20,396 bases of DNA from a virus. Positions 2,623 through 15,871 of this stretch are shown in pieces (positions within the stretch are counted from its first letter, which is position 1; each line of letters opens with the position of its first letter). The notes under the pieces are model-generated. The model did no database searches, was not told the origin of the DNA, and saw nothing but the letters and a program-made list of their open reading frames with translations. The stretch covers positions 1 through 20,396 of the IMG/VR virus record IMGVR_UViG_3300028384_000067. One strand, given 5' to 3'. The position numbers were made by a program, and so were the translations under genes.

Positions 2623-3135
2623 ATGAATAGATTTATTATTGAGAACAGTGTGACAGAAATTGCTAAGTCACTATGTGACCAACACATTGTCAAGATGCCG
2701 TTGGAAGAAGCGCAGATGCTATGCACTAGCGTATGGCATCATGCCCCAACATTTGCAGAGGAGCGAGGCTTATATAAACCAGTGCATCAGAAACATCCAT
2801 GCACACTATGGGCAATGGAGTGCCGCAAGAACTATGATTATGCTATTCGATTATATGATGCCATGCTGAATGAATACACAGAGCGATATGGTAAAGTACA
2901 TGGTGCAGGTAAGCATCGCCAGTCATTGATTGAGGCAAGCGATTACATACCAGATACTACAAACTTTATGACCCCACATCCTCAGTGTTTCAGTGGGCAT
3001 GACAGCCTAAAGAACAATGACCCCTGGCCCATCAAAGCATATCGTGCCTTTTACAAGGTTGACAAACTACGATTTGCTAGATATAACAAAGGACGCAGTA
3101 TGCCACAATGGATGATGGAAGGAGTTGCAGTATAA
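2623..3135 (+). CDS. phage conserved protein resembling pyrimidine-dimer DNA glycosylase family
   Basis: A 170-residue protein with GAGGAG just before the ATG. Its N-terminus carries CDQHIVKMPLEEAQML (residues 18-33), followed by YKPVHQKHPCTLWAMEC (51-67) and an aromatic helix NYDYAIRLYDAML. From memory, proteins with this CDxHxVKM...HPC..W pattern are widespread in marine phages and are annotated as pyrimidine-dimer DNA glycosylase-like; T4 endonuclease V has a related DQH segment near its N-terminus. That enzyme removes UV-induced thymine dimers, which would suit a phage in sunlit water. The similarity is by pattern only: T4 endonuclease V uses the amino group of an N-terminal Thr, and here residue 2 is Asn, so activity is unproven. 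The stop overlaps the next start as TAATG. Confidence 0.55.
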   Translation: MNRFIIENSVTEIAKSLCDQHIVKMPLEEAQMLCTSVWHHAPTFAEERGLYKPVHQKHPCTLWAMECRKNYDYAIRLYDAMLNEYTERYGKVHGAGKHRQSLIEASDYIPDTTNFMTPHPQCFSGHDSLKNNDPWPIKAYRAFYKVDKLRFARYNKGRSMPQWMMEGVAV

Positions 3136-4278: not shown

Positions 4279-5028
4279 ATGTATAATATAATAAATGATA
4301 TACATATAGATGTAGGACATTCCAAAAGAATGAACTGCCCTTTCTGTAAAGGCTATAATACTTTTACAATTACAAATCAGATGGGCAGCATTAAATGGAA
4401 CTGTTACAAAGCATCATGTAATGCAAAGGGTAACAAGCGTGTAGGCTTAACTGCCCAGGATATTCGTAATATGACTGGTGAAACTAAGAAAGAAACAACA
4501 TTCATAATGCCAGAATATATTGTACCTCATGGTAATCGTGCAGATTTAATTAGGTATGCAAATTCTTTTGGCTTGACACTGCAAGCACTTGGTGCTATGT
4601 ATGATGTTAAGGAAAAGCGCATCGTGTTTCCTATTAAACATGGTGGTAAGATTGTTGACGCTACAGGACGAGCGTTAGCAAAGCGACATCCGAAGTGGAA
4701 AAGGTATGGGTCTTCCAGTCTCCCCTATACTTTTGGCTCTGGAGATGTCGCAGTCGTTGTTGAGGACTGTGTTAGTGCTGCTGTTGTAGGTAGTGTTAAT
4801 AATCTAGTCGGGGTTGCATTGCTTGGTACAACGTTGCTTGATGAGCATAAGCAGTATCTCTCACAGTTCTCAACAGTCATGGTAGCACTTGACCCTGATG
4901 CCTTGACAAAGACAATGCAGTATGTTAAAGACCTACGCAGTGTAGTAAAGAATGTAAAAGGAATTAAGTTGGTTGATGATATTAAGTATCGTAACCCAGA
5001 TGATATGCAAAAGTTAGGAGACATATAA
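4279..5028 (+). CDS. DNA primase (zinc-binding and TOPRIM, T7 gp4-like N-terminal half)
   Basis: Makes short RNA primers for lagging-strand synthesis. The 249-residue protein has a zinc-binding domain with Cys20, Cys23, Cys42 and Cys47 (spacing CxxC...Cx4C), used by gp4-type primases to read the template. A linker follows, then a TOPRIM fold: Glu162 in AVVVEDCVSAA and the DxD pair Asp205/Asp207 in VMVALDPDA, with Asp233/234 further on. This matches the primase half of T7 gene 4 protein; the helicase half is a separate gene 0.8 kb downstream. The start follows AAAGGAG. The TAA overlaps the next start as TAATG, so the PP-loop ATPase is translationally coupled to it. Confidence 0.88.
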   Translation: MYNIINDIHIDVGHSKRMNCPFCKGYNTFTITNQMGSIKWNCYKASCNAKGNKRVGLTAQDIRNMTGETKKETTFIMPEYIVPHGNRADLIRYANSFGLTLQALGAMYDVKEKRIVFPIKHGGKIVDATGRALAKRHPKWKRYGSSSLPYTFGSGDVAVVVEDCVSAAVVGSVNNLVGVALLGTTLLDEHKQYLSQFSTVMVALDPDALTKTMQYVKDLRSVVKNVKGIKLVDDIKYRNPDDMQKLGDI

Positions 5029-5810
5029 TGATTATTTCTTGGTGGTCAGCAGGTGTTACCAGTGCAGTAGCAACAAAACTTGCTATAGATAAATACGGCA
5101 AAGATAATGTACAGCCTATTTATTTTCATATTGATTCAGCACATGATGATAACAAAAGATTTATTGATGAGTGCCAAGAGTGGTATGGTAAAGAGATTAC
5201 CATCACAAAAGCAGAGAAGTACAACAATCAATTTGATGTAATACTAAAAGATAAATATGTTAATGGACCAGGCGGCGCAAGATGTACTCTTGTATTAAAG
5301 AAAAAGGTAAGACAAAAGATTGAGTCTAACACAGAATATGATGGTCAAGTGTTTGGCTTTGAGTATTCAAAAAAAGAAATCAATCGTGCTATTAGATTTA
5401 AAGAACAATACCCTAGTGCAAAACCTTTGTTCCCTTTGATTGATAACAAGATGACAAAGCCAGAGTGTTTATATTACCTTGAGAAGAACGGCATTAAACG
5501 CCCTACTATGTACGAGTTAGGGTATGGCAATAATAATTGTATAGGTTGTGTGAAGGGTGGTAAAGGGTACTGGAATAAAATTCGTATTGACTTTCCAGAA
5601 GTCTTTGATAAGATGGCAGAAGCAGAACGAGTTGTAGGTAACTCTTGTTTGCGTGGTGTTTTTCTTGATGAACTGAATCCAGAAGAAGGACGAAAGCAAA
5701 AGCATATCATGCCCGATTGTGGTAACTTTTGTGACATTGAGTTTGAAGACATACTACACAAAGATGTGGAGAAAATATATAAAGACCCCGAACAGTTACA
5801 ACTTATATAG
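5028..5810 (+). CDS. PP-loop ATPase, phosphoadenosine phosphosulfate reductase-like (DndC-like) phage protein
   Basis: A 260-residue protein of the adenine-nucleotide alpha-hydrolase superfamily. The N-terminus SWWSAGVTSAVATKLAI aligns with the PP-loop SGGxDS, but the second Gly and the Asp are changed (SAGVTS). Next come the strand YFHIDSAHDDNKRF, GGARCTLVLKKK with Cys86, and NNNCIGCVKGGKGYWNKIR with Cys171 and Cys174; later Cys are 207, 231 and 235. PAPS reductases use such folds on sulfonucleotides, while relatives such as DndC and TtcA use Cys-bound iron-sulfur clusters to put sulfur into nucleic acids. A set like Cys86/171/174 plus 231 or 235 would suit a cluster. The gene lies between primase and helicase, overlapping the former by one base, suggesting a role connected with DNA. 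Assimilatory sulfate reduction is unlikely because no other such gene is present; true substrate unknown. Confidence 0.8.
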   Translation: MIISWWSAGVTSAVATKLAIDKYGKDNVQPIYFHIDSAHDDNKRFIDECQEWYGKEITITKAEKYNNQFDVILKDKYVNGPGGARCTLVLKKKVRQKIESNTEYDGQVFGFEYSKKEINRAIRFKEQYPSAKPLFPLIDNKMTKPECLYYLEKNGIKRPTMYELGYGNNNCIGCVKGGKGYWNKIRIDFPEVFDKMAEAERVVGNSCLRGVFLDELNPEEGRKQKHIMPDCGNFCDIEFEDILHKDVEKIYKDPEQLQLI

Positions 5811-5820
5811 GAGACATAAT

Positions 5821-7044
5821 ATGGAACTAGGATTAATTAGAAGTTTGATGGATAAAGATTTCTACGATGGACATCGTGGAGATAGATGCCCAGATAAACT
5901 ATTTAGCAAGGATGTACAGAAAGTAAAGAGACACATTGACCAGATGATGCAACAGTATCGTAGGTCAATCAATCCTCAAGAGGTTGAGGCATCCTTTATG
6001 TCAAGCAACCCAACGTTAACCACTGCGCAGAAGCAAACATACTCAGAGTTGTTCCATCAGATTAGGAATGAGAGAGCGATAGGGGACGATGTAGCATCAG
6101 ATGTACTTGCACGGCTGTTTCAGCAGTCTGTGGGGGCAGAGATTGCAGAGTTGGGGTTTGACTACGTTAATGGAGATGAGGCCACCCTAGAGCCTCTGAG
6201 AGAGATTCTTACAAAGTATAATGATGACTTCACACCTAACCTAAATCTTGAGTGGGAAGCGATTGATATTGATTCACTGCTTGCAGGACACACAGAGGAA
6301 AGTAAATGGAGTTTCAACATTGCAACACTAGCACGTTGTGTATCTGGTGTTAACTCAGGACACCTCATTGAGATTGGTGCAAGACCTAACACAGGTAAGA
6401 CATCATTCCATGCTAGTATGATTGCAGGTCCAGGTGGGTTTGCGCATCAGGGTGCTAAGTGTGTAGTGCTTTGTAATGAAGAGAAGGCAGGGCGTGTAGC
6501 CAATCGTTACCTAACTGCCGCAACAGGAATGACTATGGAAGAGGTAGATAGTAACAAATCGAAAGCAAACTATCTCTATTCACCAGTCAAAGATAACATT
6601 TGGTTATATGATTCATCTGGCAAAGACATGGCTTGGGTGGAAAGTGTAGCAAAAAGTTATCGTCCAGACATTTTAGTGCTTGACATGGGCGATAAATTTG
6701 CTAAGATGTCTGGGTACTCACGGCCTGATGAAGCATTGAAAGCCAATGTTATTCATGCTCGTGAGATTGGGAAGCAGTATGGTTGTGCTGTGTTCTATAT
6801 GTCTCAGTTATCAGCAGAGGCAGAGGGCAGGACAGTTCTCAATCAAAGTATGATGGAAGGTTCTAAGACAGGCAAAGCAGCCGAAGCCGACTTGATGATT
6901 TTGATTGGGGCTAACCCAATGATTGAGGGTCAGACCGAACAGGATACACAAAGGCATTTGAATATTGCCAAGAATAAGTTGACTGGTTGGCATGGCAAGA
7001 TTGTATGTAACCTTGATTATGTTTATGGGAGATATGTAGTATGA
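5821..7044 (+). CDS. replicative DNA helicase (DnaB / T7 gp4 helicase family)
   Basis: Ring helicase expected to unwind the fork using NTP hydrolysis. The ATG at 5821 is chosen because AGGAG at 5810-5814 is correctly spaced; an ATG at 5719 in this frame would overlap the preceding gene by 92 bases and lacks such a site. The 407-residue protein has a helical N-terminal part (1-150) that may contact the primase, then a RecA-like core: Walker A GARPNTGKT (186-194), a NEE segment with the likely catalytic Glu at 219-220, Walker B ILVLD (Asp288), and the polar strand YMSQL (Gln329). The C-terminal TEADL-like region appears as KAAEADLMILIGA, followed by KNKLTG. It overlaps the next gene by four bases (ATGA). 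Unlike T7, primase and helicase are separate genes. Confidence 0.9.
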   Translation: MELGLIRSLMDKDFYDGHRGDRCPDKLFSKDVQKVKRHIDQMMQQYRRSINPQEVEASFMSSNPTLTTAQKQTYSELFHQIRNERAIGDDVASDVLARLFQQSVGAEIAELGFDYVNGDEATLEPLREILTKYNDDFTPNLNLEWEAIDIDSLLAGHTEESKWSFNIATLARCVSGVNSGHLIEIGARPNTGKTSFHASMIAGPGGFAHQGAKCVVLCNEEKAGRVANRYLTAATGMTMEEVDSNKSKANYLYSPVKDNIWLYDSSGKDMAWVESVAKSYRPDILVLDMGDKFAKMSGYSRPDEALKANVIHAREIGKQYGCAVFYMSQLSAEAEGRTVLNQSMMEGSKTGKAAEADLMILIGANPMIEGQTEQDTQRHLNIAKNKLTGWHGKIVCNLDYVYGRYVV

Positions 7045-7243: not shown

Positions 7244-7339
7244 ATGTTTAGTATTGGAGTAATGTTGCCTATGATTGTAAAGTTTGGTATCTTTGCAGGG
7301 GTAATTGACGCAACTACAACAGCAGCAGGACTGAAGTAA
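7244..7339 (+). CDS. 31-residue hydrophobic micropeptide
   Basis: A short reading frame with a strong AAAAGGAG ribosome binding site (about 7229-7236) starts at ATG 7244. Its TAA shares a base with the ATG of the polymerase gene (TAATG). The product begins MFSIGVMLPMIVKFGIFAGV, a mostly hydrophobic segment with one Lys that could be a short membrane helix, then a Thr/Ala-rich tail. Its main role may be to deliver ribosomes to the polymerase start, which has no good binding site of its own within the correct distance. Function as a peptide is unknown. Confidence 0.5.
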   Translation: MFSIGVMLPMIVKFGIFAGVIDATTTAAGLK

Positions 7340-9381
7340 TGAAACTTACCCTTGATGTCGAAAATACAGTGACAGAAAGGGATGGTAAACTCCACCTTGA
7401 CCCCTTTGAAAAGGATAATACATTGGTCATGGTGGGGTTACTCACTGATACTGGTAAGTGTGAGATTGTAACGCTTGACCACAGTGAGGTAGAGCCAACC
7501 CCCATGTCAGACGCTATCATCCAACAGTACTTGGACGATGCTACTGTGCTTATCATGCACAATGCCGCACACGATTTGCTCTGGCTGTGGGAATCTGGCT
7601 TTACATATGATGGGCCTGTCTTTGACACAATGCTTGGCGAATATGTTCTACAACGTGGTCAAAAAGAACCACTATCATTAGAAGCATGTGCAGAAAGATA
7701 TGACCTTGATACTAAGAAGCAGGATACATTGAAGGAATACTTCAAGAAAGGGTACAGTGTGCGTGACATTCCTCATGCAGAATTATCTGAGTATCTTGTG
7801 GCAGACTTAGAAGCAACACAGCAGTTGGCAGATAAGATTATGTATCGTCTAATGTCTAGCGATTCCTCTAGCCTACTACCAACTGTTGACCTCACAAACC
7901 AGGTTGCCTATTGTTTATCACGTATATATCAGCGTGGTTTCAAGGTTGACCTGTCAGTGCTAGACGAAGTGCGAGTACAGTTTGAGACAGAACGAGAGCA
8001 ACTGAAGCATGACCTGCAAGAGCATGTCCATAAACTCATGGGTGACACACCTATTAATCTCAACAGTCCAGAGCAACTATCGTGGGTAATCTATAGTCGC
8101 AAGCCTAAAGATAAAAACGTTTGGGCAAATGCAATCAACCCTTACATGCGTGAGCGTGAGTTTAAGGATTTGATTCTACGGAATACACAAGTTGTATTCA
8201 AGACAAAGGCAGAACAATGTCCATCATGTGGTGGTACAGGTTATGTGCGTAAGACTAAGAAGGATGGGACACCATTTGCTCGTCCTAACAAATGTATTAC
8301 GTGTGCAGCCTCTGGCTTTATCTACAACAAACTGAATGAAGTTGCTGGCCTACGCTTTAATGCACCCAATGCTAAGTGGGCTAGTGCAAATGGCTTCTCT
8401 ACCAGTAAGGATAATCTGCAAATCCTAAAGAAGATTGCAGTACATAACAAGATGAAGGACGCAGAAGATTTCCTTGAGAAGGTTTCTCGCCTGAGTGCTG
8501 TGGAAACATACCTATCATCCTTTGTTGATGGAATTAAGACACATACAAAGTATGATGGTAAGTTACATGTGCGTTTGTTACAGCATCGCACAGCCACAGG
8601 ACGTTTCTCAGGTGCTGACCCGAACATGCAGAACATGCCAAGAGGTGGTACATTCCCTGTTAAGAAGGTGTTTGTATCTCGTTGGGATGGTGGCAAGGTA
8701 CTAGAAGCAGACTTTGCACAGCTAGAGTTTCGGGCTGCTGCGTTCCTTTCACAGGACGGAGTTGCTATTGAAGAAGTTGCTACAGGATTTGATGTACACT
8801 CATATACCAGTAAGGTTATTAGTGATGCTGGTCAGCCTACGAGTAGACAGGAAGCTAAAGCACACACGTTTGCACCACTCTATGGGGCAACAGGCTATGG
8901 GCGAACACCTGCAGAAGCAGAATATTACACACACTTTACAGACAAGTATCAAGGGATAGGTGATTGGCATGAAGAGTTAGCTACAGAAGCATTAGAGACA
9001 GGCAAGATTACGACACCATCTGGGCGTGAGTTTGCTTTCCCTGATGTACAACGTAAGTCAAGTGGTAAGGTTACTTACTTTACACAGATTAAGAACTACC
9101 CTGTGCAATCATTTGCTACAGCAGACATTGTTCCTATCGCCTTGCTACACATTGACAAACTACTAAAAGATATGAAGTCATGTATCGTTAACACTGTCCA
9201 TGATAGTATTGTTATTGATGTTCACCCTGATGAAGAAGCCGAAGTCATTGAGGTAATTAATCAAACAAACAATGAGTTACCTAATCTAATTAGAGACAGA
9301 TGGCAGGTAACGTTTAATGTTCCTCTATTATTAGAGGCAAAGATTGGCCCGAATTGGCTTGACACGAAAGATGTTGTGTGA
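7339..9381 (+). CDS. polA: family A DNA polymerase with inserted DnaJ-like zinc finger
   Basis: Replicative polymerase of 680 residues. A 3'-5' proofreading domain comes first: exo I DVE (Asp6, Glu8), exo II HNAAHD (Asn75-Asp79) and exo III YLVAD (Tyr152-Asp156). Residues about 290-330 carry CPSCGGTG (Cys294, Cys297) and CITCAASG (Cys319, Cys322), two half-repeats like those of the DnaJ central domain. The polymerase domain follows: HRTATGRFSG (416-425), motif A EADFAQLEFR (Asp458), motif B RQEAKAHTFAPLYG (Arg503, Lys507, Phe511, Tyr515) and motif C VHDS (His621, Asp622). There is no 5'-3' exonuclease domain, as in T7 gp5. Phe511 occupies the position of E. coli Pol I Phe762. The zinc-finger layout is, as I recall, characteristic of HMO-2011-like marine phages. 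All catalytic residues seem intact. The start overlaps the micropeptide stop. Confidence 0.96.
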   Translation: MKLTLDVENTVTERDGKLHLDPFEKDNTLVMVGLLTDTGKCEIVTLDHSEVEPTPMSDAIIQQYLDDATVLIMHNAAHDLLWLWESGFTYDGPVFDTMLGEYVLQRGQKEPLSLEACAERYDLDTKKQDTLKEYFKKGYSVRDIPHAELSEYLVADLEATQQLADKIMYRLMSSDSSSLLPTVDLTNQVAYCLSRIYQRGFKVDLSVLDEVRVQFETEREQLKHDLQEHVHKLMGDTPINLNSPEQLSWVIYSRKPKDKNVWANAINPYMREREFKDLILRNTQVVFKTKAEQCPSCGGTGYVRKTKKDGTPFARPNKCITCAASGFIYNKLNEVAGLRFNAPNAKWASANGFSTSKDNLQILKKIAVHNKMKDAEDFLEKVSRLSAVETYLSSFVDGIKTHTKYDGKLHVRLLQHRTATGRFSGADPNMQNMPRGGTFPVKKVFVSRWDGGKVLEADFAQLEFRAAAFLSQDGVAIEEVATGFDVHSYTSKVISDAGQPTSRQEAKAHTFAPLYGATGYGRTPAEAEYYTHFTDKYQGIGDWHEELATEALETGKITTPSGREFAFPDVQRKSSGKVTYFTQIKNYPVQSFATADIVPIALLHIDKLLKDMKSCIVNTVHDSIVIDVHPDEEAEVIEVINQTNNELPNLIRDRWQVTFNVPLLLEAKIGPNWLDTKDVV

Positions 9382-14722: not shown

Positions 14723-15341
14723 TTTAATTGACCACATGGGTTCTGACCTAACGGTAGTCAATGCAGCGAGGGTATCTTTTGATAAGGTATCCTCGTCTTT
14801 GTCTGAGAAAGATATTAAACTTATTAACTATCTTGCAAAGCACAATCATTGGTCACCATTTAGCCATGCCTACTTACAGTTCCGTATCAAAGCACCTATC
14901 TTTATTGCACGTCAATTGGCAAAGCATCAGGTAGGGCTGTCATGGAACGAAGTATCACGTAGATACGTAGACACAGAACCTGAGTTCTATGAGCCTAAAG
15001 AGTGGCGTGGTAGACCAGACAATGTAAAGCAAGGTAGTGATGGTGTTGTAGAGGTTAATAAACTAAACTACATTCGTATGATGTCAGAGTGTGTGGGGTT
15101 TTATAACGGTTTAATAGGGCAGGGTGTAGCACCTGAGATGGCACGTATGGTATTGCCACAAGCTACAATGACAGAGTGGTACTGGTCAGGTAGTTTATAC
15201 TCATTTGCAAGAGTGTGTCAATTAAGACTTGACAAGACATCACAAATTGAGGTACAAGAGATAGCACGGCAGTTGTCTGCACATTGTAACACACTGTTTC
15301 CACACAGTTGGAACGCATTGATGAAAGGAGAAGAGGATTGA
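14712..15341 (+). CDS. thyX: flavin-dependent thymidylate synthase
   Basis: Makes dTMP from dUMP with methylenetetrahydrofolate, FAD and NADPH. From ATG 14712 it has 209 residues; a GTG at 14700 in frame, seven bases after AAAGAG, would add four residues and is a real alternative. The family opening LIDHMGSDLTVVNAARVSF is followed by HWSPFSHAYLQFRIKAPIF and the ThyX signature region RQLAKHQVGLSWNEVSRRY (67-85). The usual RHRx7S core reads KHQ here with one extra residue before the Ser. C-terminal nucleotide-binding features are LPQATMTEWYWSGSLYSFA and LRLDKTSQIEVQEIA. It follows ribonucleotide reductase and precedes MazG, a dTTP-supply arrangement. The 5' end overlaps the DUF1127 gene. Confidence 0.93.
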   Translation: MTVDLIDHMGSDLTVVNAARVSFDKVSSSLSEKDIKLINYLAKHNHWSPFSHAYLQFRIKAPIFIARQLAKHQVGLSWNEVSRRYVDTEPEFYEPKEWRGRPDNVKQGSDGVVEVNKLNYIRMMSECVGFYNGLIGQGVAPEMARMVLPQATMTEWYWSGSLYSFARVCQLRLDKTSQIEVQEIARQLSAHCNTLFPHSWNALMKGEED

Positions 15342-15871
15342 TAGATACAATATCTAATGACACAGGCTTGAAGTACTGCCCACGTTGTGACACAGAAAAA
15401 CTTACCAAAGATTTTTACCCTGTTCCTGCAAGAAGCGATGGTTTGGACAGTAGGTGCAGAGAGTGTCGCACAGTTAGTAACGACAATAGAATGTACATCA
15501 ATGGCAAGTACATCCCACAGTCACACCCATTGCACAAGCCAGGCAAGTACAAGTCACTGGATGACGCATGGTCACACAACAAGATTGAAAGTACAAAAGA
15601 GGGGGAAGTTTACCTCATAGCCAATGATGCATGGCCTGATTGGGTAAAGGTAGGGAAGGCAGTGGATGCTGAAGATAGATTAAATGGCTATCAAACTTCT
15701 TCACCATTCCGTGATTACTACATCATGGCAAAGATTAGTGTCGAGAACAGACACACGTTTGAGAAATACATGCATCAAGTGTTTGAGTCTCAGGCAAAGG
15801 AGCGTAAGTCAGAGTGGTTTAAAATACCACATGATAGAGCGAGGGAAATTTTAAATGAACATAGAGCGTGA
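15338..15871 (+). CDS. zinc-ribbon plus T5orf172 (GIY-YIG-like) domain protein
   Basis: TTG at 15338, seven bases after AAAGGAG (15324-15330), overlaps the ThyX stop and gives 177 residues. The N-terminal zinc ribbon has Cys14/Cys17 (YCPRCDTEKL) and Cys40/Cys43 (SRCRECR). After a linker, residues 89-165 match the T5orf172 type of GIY-YIG domain: VYLIAND (91-97), VKVGKA (103-108), Arg114 and the helix HTFEKYMHQVF with candidate catalytic Glu142 and His146, then EWFKI. GIY-YIG domains cut DNA, although T5orf172 members are little studied and some may only bind. It may act on host or competing phage DNA. Its 3' end overlaps MazG by 17 bases. Confidence 0.8.
   Translation: MIDTISNDTGLKYCPRCDTEKLTKDFYPVPARSDGLDSRCRECRTVSNDNRMYINGKYIPQSHPLHKPGKYKSLDDAWSHNKIESTKEGEVYLIANDAWPDWVKVGKAVDAEDRLNGYQTSSPFRDYYIMAKISVENRHTFEKYMHQVFESQAKERKSEWFKIPHDRAREILNEHRA

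Follow-up and report, generated by a model that had tools for sequence, protein, structure and literature searches.

The window analysed here is a viral metagenome record of 20,396 bases. It contains an intact, stop-free open reading frame (ORF) for a PP-loop protein, located between the genes for a DNA primase and a replicative helicase (Table 1). The record has a relative in Puniceispirillum phage HMO-2011, with 75.8% identity across part of the replication region, and belongs to a marine phage of the HMO-2011 type. The primase and PP-loop genes are translationally coupled, the TAA of the former overlapping the ATG of the latter. An earlier note on this DNA had described this coupling, the helicase as the following gene and a PP-loop that reads SAGVTS instead of SGGxDS: the coordinates (5026-5030 and 5821) and residues 7-12 agree with that description. 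The protein has cysteines at positions 49, 86, 147, 171, 174, 207, 231 and 235 and ends in PDCGNFCDIEF.

Table 1. Features of the PptA-like gene and its flanking sequences in the window.
Feature	Position	Strand	Basis
DNA primase (Toprim); its stop codon overlaps the PptA-like start codon (TAATG, 5026-5030)	4279..5028	+	
Direct repeat TAGGAGACATA, 11 bases, ribosome-binding site region, upstream copy	5015..5025	+	
PptA-like PP-loop protein gene, 260 aa (annotation type 'PAPS reductase', phrog_424)	5028..5810	+	
PP-loop, residues 7-12, S-A-G-V-T-S; family pattern S-x-G-x-x-S, Asp of SGGxDS missing	5046..5063	+	alignment
Cys86, motif CTxxLK, common to SspD and DndC	5283..5285	+	alignment
Cys171-x2-Cys174 (NNNCIGCVKGG), common to SspD and DndC	5538..5549	+	alignment
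Cys231-x3-Cys235 (PDCGNFC), C-terminal; comparable to C-terminal CNIC of SspD	5718..5732	+	alignment
Direct repeat TAGGAGACATA, 11 bases, downstream copy	5808..5818	+	
DnaB-type replicative helicase; start 10 nt past the stop of the PptA-like gene	5821..7044	+	

The window protein matches phrog_424 (E=5.6e-51) and the SspD model of PADLOC. In Pfam, the single match above cut-off is to PF01507 (PAPS_reduct), with an E value of 8e-5 that is barely over the threshold. No NCBIfam model comes near its cut-off for the window protein, and those for CysH/APS reductase do not do so for ten of its relatives either. An AF2 model of the protein (pLDDT 86, pTM 0.86) has its best fold matches among PAPS/APS reductases (Z 11-12.5), followed by GMP synthetase, YcfA, TtuA, NcsA and LarE, in a comparison library that ends on 8 April 2026 and is without PDB entry 21fy (discussed below). 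Fold likeness does not reveal function in this case.

Profile comparisons and phylogeny are more specific. The SspD model of PADLOC matches 27 of 28 family members. Using hhalign, the family aligns with SspD at a probability of 97.7 (E 1e-12), collinearly across the CTxxLK and CxxC motifs, while comparisons with DndC (five sequences), APS reductase, CysH, YbdN and TtcA (E. coli TtcA, probability 1.8) are all not significant; because the alignments behind these profiles are small (1-19 sequences each), we rely on nothing beyond the difference between SspD and the others. In a maximum-likelihood tree, the window protein, PptA of Vibrio phage vB_VhaP_VH-5 and other phage members form one 19-row clade (SH-aLRT 98) that is separate from CysH/APS reductase, SspD and DndC, in a topology with weak deep branches and long rows for YbdN, Huey and two bacterial sequences. 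Among characterised families, SspD, the sulfur-accepting PP-loop subunit of Ssp DNA phosphorothioation, comes closest. DndC was considered for this place and is not supported by the profile comparison, although its CTxxLK and CxxC motifs align. The likeness to DndC or TtcA proposed in the earlier note is thus retained as kinship to the PP-loop proteins of DNA phosphorothioation, but neither of those two proteins is significant by hhalign and the nearest relative is SspD.

The conserved residues were examined in an alignment of the window family with diverse phage members, SspD, DndC, E. coli CysH and YbdN. The phage family shares Cys86 (CTxxLK) and Cys171/Cys174 (CxxC) with SspD and DndC but not with CysH; SspD and nearly every phage member also have the C-terminal pair 231/235, and all five of these cysteines align with SspD cysteines. 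C86, C171, C174, C231 and C235 are invariant across 126 relatives, such that the conservation anticipated for this cysteine set in the earlier note holds. H39, R95, K176 and W182 are likewise invariant in the 126 close relatives. C49 and C207 are nearly invariant: all seven cysteines other than C147, which is variable (85/126 relatives), are kept in 99-100% of the 126 rows. Across the wider set of phages, loss of C49 and C207 is frequent and the other five mostly stay. The PP-loop has the pattern S-x-G-x-x-S throughout the phage family, in contrast to SGGKDS in both SspD and DndC. The Asp of SGGxDS is absent from the whole phage family, which casts doubt on an ATP pyrophosphatase activity like that of SspD and DndC. 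For the two closest relatives, dN is 0.07 against a saturated dS, and the gene is under strong purifying selection.

A PDB sequence search matches residues 3-240 of the window protein to a molecule named 'PptA' in the 2026 entry 21fy (E=4.1e-61). The matched sequence is identical to a 250-aa protein of phage VH-5 (MN497414.1, QGH73774.1), and the 270-aa chain in 21fy therefore fits a 20-residue tag. As the PptA chain is labelled C, the other chains were checked for a cysteine desulfurase: an E. coli IscS query matches a sequence common to 1p3w and 21fy. Entry 21fy thus contains both E. coli IscS, a host cysteine desulfurase, and a phage homologue of the window protein. No PDB chain matched any of a set of small or unknown VH-5 proteins, which were checked as candidates for a further partner in 21fy besides IscS. 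The association with IscS belongs to the VH-5 homologue, as the contents of 21fy, and would extend to the window protein by homology. A literature search on PptA, phage phosphorothioation and IscS found no paper describing PptA. The existence of 21fy shows that work on a member of the family is under way elsewhere.

VH-5 PptA and the window protein are 44.5% identical over 93% of the latter (tblastn). Both are products of stand-alone phage genes and share the S-x-G-x-x-S PP-loop and C49, C86, C171, C174, C231 and C235. Unlike the window protein, VH-5 PptA is without Cys207 and has the C-terminal sequence ECSLVC instead of DCGNFC; its gene is placed after that for an RNA polymerase rather than between primase and helicase. 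The window gene adds a member to the PptA family and represents a variant of the SspD/DndC type.

Relatives of the gene are overwhelmingly viral: 339 viral contigs carry one, compared to one contig among 84,980 prokaryotic species genomes. The patterns were comparable and narrow in both scans, with two peptide patterns in the prokaryotic one, so that cellular members may exist. The contig of that single prokaryotic-scan relative (L085) has a phage-like gene layout. Similar genes adjoin replication or recombination genes in phages of Nitrincola, Pseudoalteromonas, Rhizobium, Synechococcus and others, and an Escherichia phage relative sits between NinB and NinG. Among the relatives with 3 kb of sequence on each side, 32/45 have a replication gene no more than 3 kb away. 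The replication operon is hence not an odd place for such a gene, as the earlier note had considered it to be.

In 57 loci, a window-type helicase and its primase are both in view: these two genes are directly adjacent in 55, and the PptA-like gene lies between them, as in the window, in only two (L001 and L182 [L002 contig]). HMO-2011 itself has no such gene at the primase-helicase junction. At this junction 55 of the 57 relatives lack the gene, and the window copy is predicted to be an insertion. L183, a close relative that does not carry the gene, has a single TAGGAGACATA copy at its empty junction, and the TAGGAGACATA repeats at both ends of the window gene are compatible with a cassette-like insertion; conserved ribosome-binding sites could explain part of these repeats. 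In seven of the 55 loci with adjacent primase and helicase genes, a related gene is found farther upstream, in the six complete cases just before the primase. A sister group (L190, L192, L232, L237 [1464-2243]) has the PptA-like gene just before the primase instead of after it, so that this operon has acquired the gene at two different places.

Known DNA phosphorothioation combines a PAPS-reductase-like protein with an ATPase and a component that recognises or nicks DNA (PMC12707154). Possible partner proteins were sought in 11 phage records (the window record, which is a fragment, VH-5 and nine others), and no Aminotran_5 desulfurase, DndD or SspC was found. The earlier note had likewise seen no dnd partners in the window record. 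For the complete VH-5 genome, PADLOC returns SspD and two polymerase/primase cross-matches and nothing further, with no indication of an sspA/B/C operon. A DndE search carries no information, as no positive control was detected. Clustering of the neighbours at 126 loci did not reveal a constant operon partner: most are replication, recombination or methyltransferase genes, none of them constant. As no partners are recognised, the phage version would be stand-alone or would act with unrelated partners, the host supplying IscS.

We propose that the window gene encodes a PptA-type sulfurtransferase that would move persulfide sulfur from IscS to nucleic acid, most likely phage DNA, and we put the chances of this reading at about even. 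Sulfur insertion, which the earlier note had favoured over sulfate reduction, is supported both by SspD as the nearest family and by the IscS in the homologue's PDB entry. In the two known systems, SspD is the sulfur acceptor from a cysteine desulfurase, with an SspA-SspD complex seen in pulldowns and SspA thought to pass the sulfur on (PMC7188994), while DndC is an IscS/DndA-dependent Fe-S protein to which DndA or IscS gives sulfur (PMC7188994, PMC11662687). The phage family resembles SspD in its collinear fold profile, CTxxLK, CxxC and C-terminal cysteine pair, and DndC in CTxxLK and CxxC. It differs from SspD, which has SGGKDS and the partners SspA, SspB and SspC, in having neither the Asp nor recognised partners, and from DndC in that the latter is about 440-470 aa in length, has SGGKDS and works with DndD/DndE.

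According to this proposal, host IscS would pass persulfide sulfur to one invariant cysteine of the phage protein. The probable role of Cys86, Cys171, Cys174 and either Cys231 or Cys235 is to ligate an Fe-S cluster or to carry the persulfide, and the PP-loop pocket may bind an activated phosphate. The sulfur would end in nucleic acid that the neighbouring replication proteins make. The most likely product is a phosphorothioate in the backbone of phage DNA, the target favoured by the relation to SspD and the replication setting. Such a modification would protect or mark phage DNA, with the phage supplying the PptA-type protein alone and the host supplying IscS. Several points count against the proposal: the family-wide loss of the PP-loop Asp makes ATP cleavage as in SspD uncertain, no ATPase or DNA-recognising/nicking subunit is recognised in VH-5, unlike in known phosphorothioation, and the IscS complex fits tRNA thiolation or IscS inhibition equally. 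That a single phage protein with host IscS sulfur phosphorothioates its own DNA beside the replication fork, dispensing with the Dnd/Ssp ATPase and DNA-recognition subunits, and that most viral 'cysH' genes of this family are then DNA-modification genes, is a tentative suggestion that we consider rather less than probable.

Of the alternatives, a thiolase of tRNA or free nucleotides fed by IscS, altering host or phage tRNA or making a thionucleotide, would account for the desulfurase, since several PP-loop tRNA thiolases are supplied by IscS (general knowledge; PMC7188994); the modelled fold is also like TtuA, NcsA, LarE and YcfA (Z about 9-10). We regard this as unlikely: the TtcA profile comparison is not significant (E. 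coli TtcA has SGGKDS and two CxxC motifs, compared to SAGVTS and one CxxC in the window protein), PAPS_reduct is the sole Pfam match, the window has no tRNA genes, and the family recurs in replication regions. A mimic of SspD/DndC could instead act as a decoy or inhibitor that sequesters IscS (or SspA/DndA), starving either the host's DNA-phosphorothioation defence or its metabolism of sulfur. The complex of the VH-5 homologue with host IscS, the degraded PP-loop and a stand-alone cargo gene that is missing from most relatives at the primase-helicase junction would all suit such a role, and phages do counter Dnd systems (PMC12345140). However, the invariance of the five putative catalytic cysteines and of H39, R95, K176 and W182 in the 126 close relatives goes beyond the needs of a binding surface, and most of those cysteines are kept even across very diverged phages, which makes a decoy quite unlikely.

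The least likely reading, and in our view a very improbable one, is that of a true PAPS/APS reductase, i.e. an auxiliary metabolic gene of sulfate assimilation. It has on its side the PF01507 match, the best matches of the modelled fold and the usual annotation of the relatives. CysH has also lost the PP-loop Asp. In contrast, the catalytic C-terminal ECGLH of CysH is absent from the window protein, as is the CC pair of APS reductase: that enzyme has a CC...CxxC [4Fe-4S] motif together with ECGLH, where the window protein has a single Cys86 (RCT). Neither the NCBIfam models nor hhalign with CysH and APR support a reductase, the phage proteins form a clade of their own, and the PDB entry of the homologue contains IscS. 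Based on these comparisons, the window protein is not predicted to be a PAPS reductase of the CysH type.

Viral cysH/PAPS reductase has been listed with the most widespread auxiliary metabolic genes, and its presence is read as viral sulfate assimilation (PMC9301287). One paper points out that phage homologues of PAPS reductase may act beyond sulfur metabolism and merit study (PMC11437467). If sulfur transfer from IscS to nucleic acid is correct, the sulfate-assimilation reading would be wrong for a large family that is almost exclusively viral in these scans, many viral 'sulfate assimilation' genes would be misnamed, and phages would own a compact sulfur-based modification or counter-defence.

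Other genes in the window include a Dcm-type C5 cytosine methyltransferase (PF00145; 41-1121), which a short HNH-like CxxC ORF (41-232) precedes and overlaps. A related C5-methyltransferase ORF cluster is found near the PptA-like gene at 36 of the 126 loci, a raw count for which we make no claim of co-occurrence because it has no baseline. In the same early region, 2623-3135 has a match to a pyrimidine-dimer DNA glycosylase domain (PF03013, phrog_624) and is a possible DNA-repair gene. Positions 7339-9381 encode a family A DNA polymerase with an internal match to a DnaJ-type CXXCXGXG zinc finger, as annotated in HMO-2011. Finally, an ORF at 15308-15871 that overlaps a ThyX-like gene has an endonuclease VII/Lar-like zinc finger and a domain from homing-endonuclease PHROGs.
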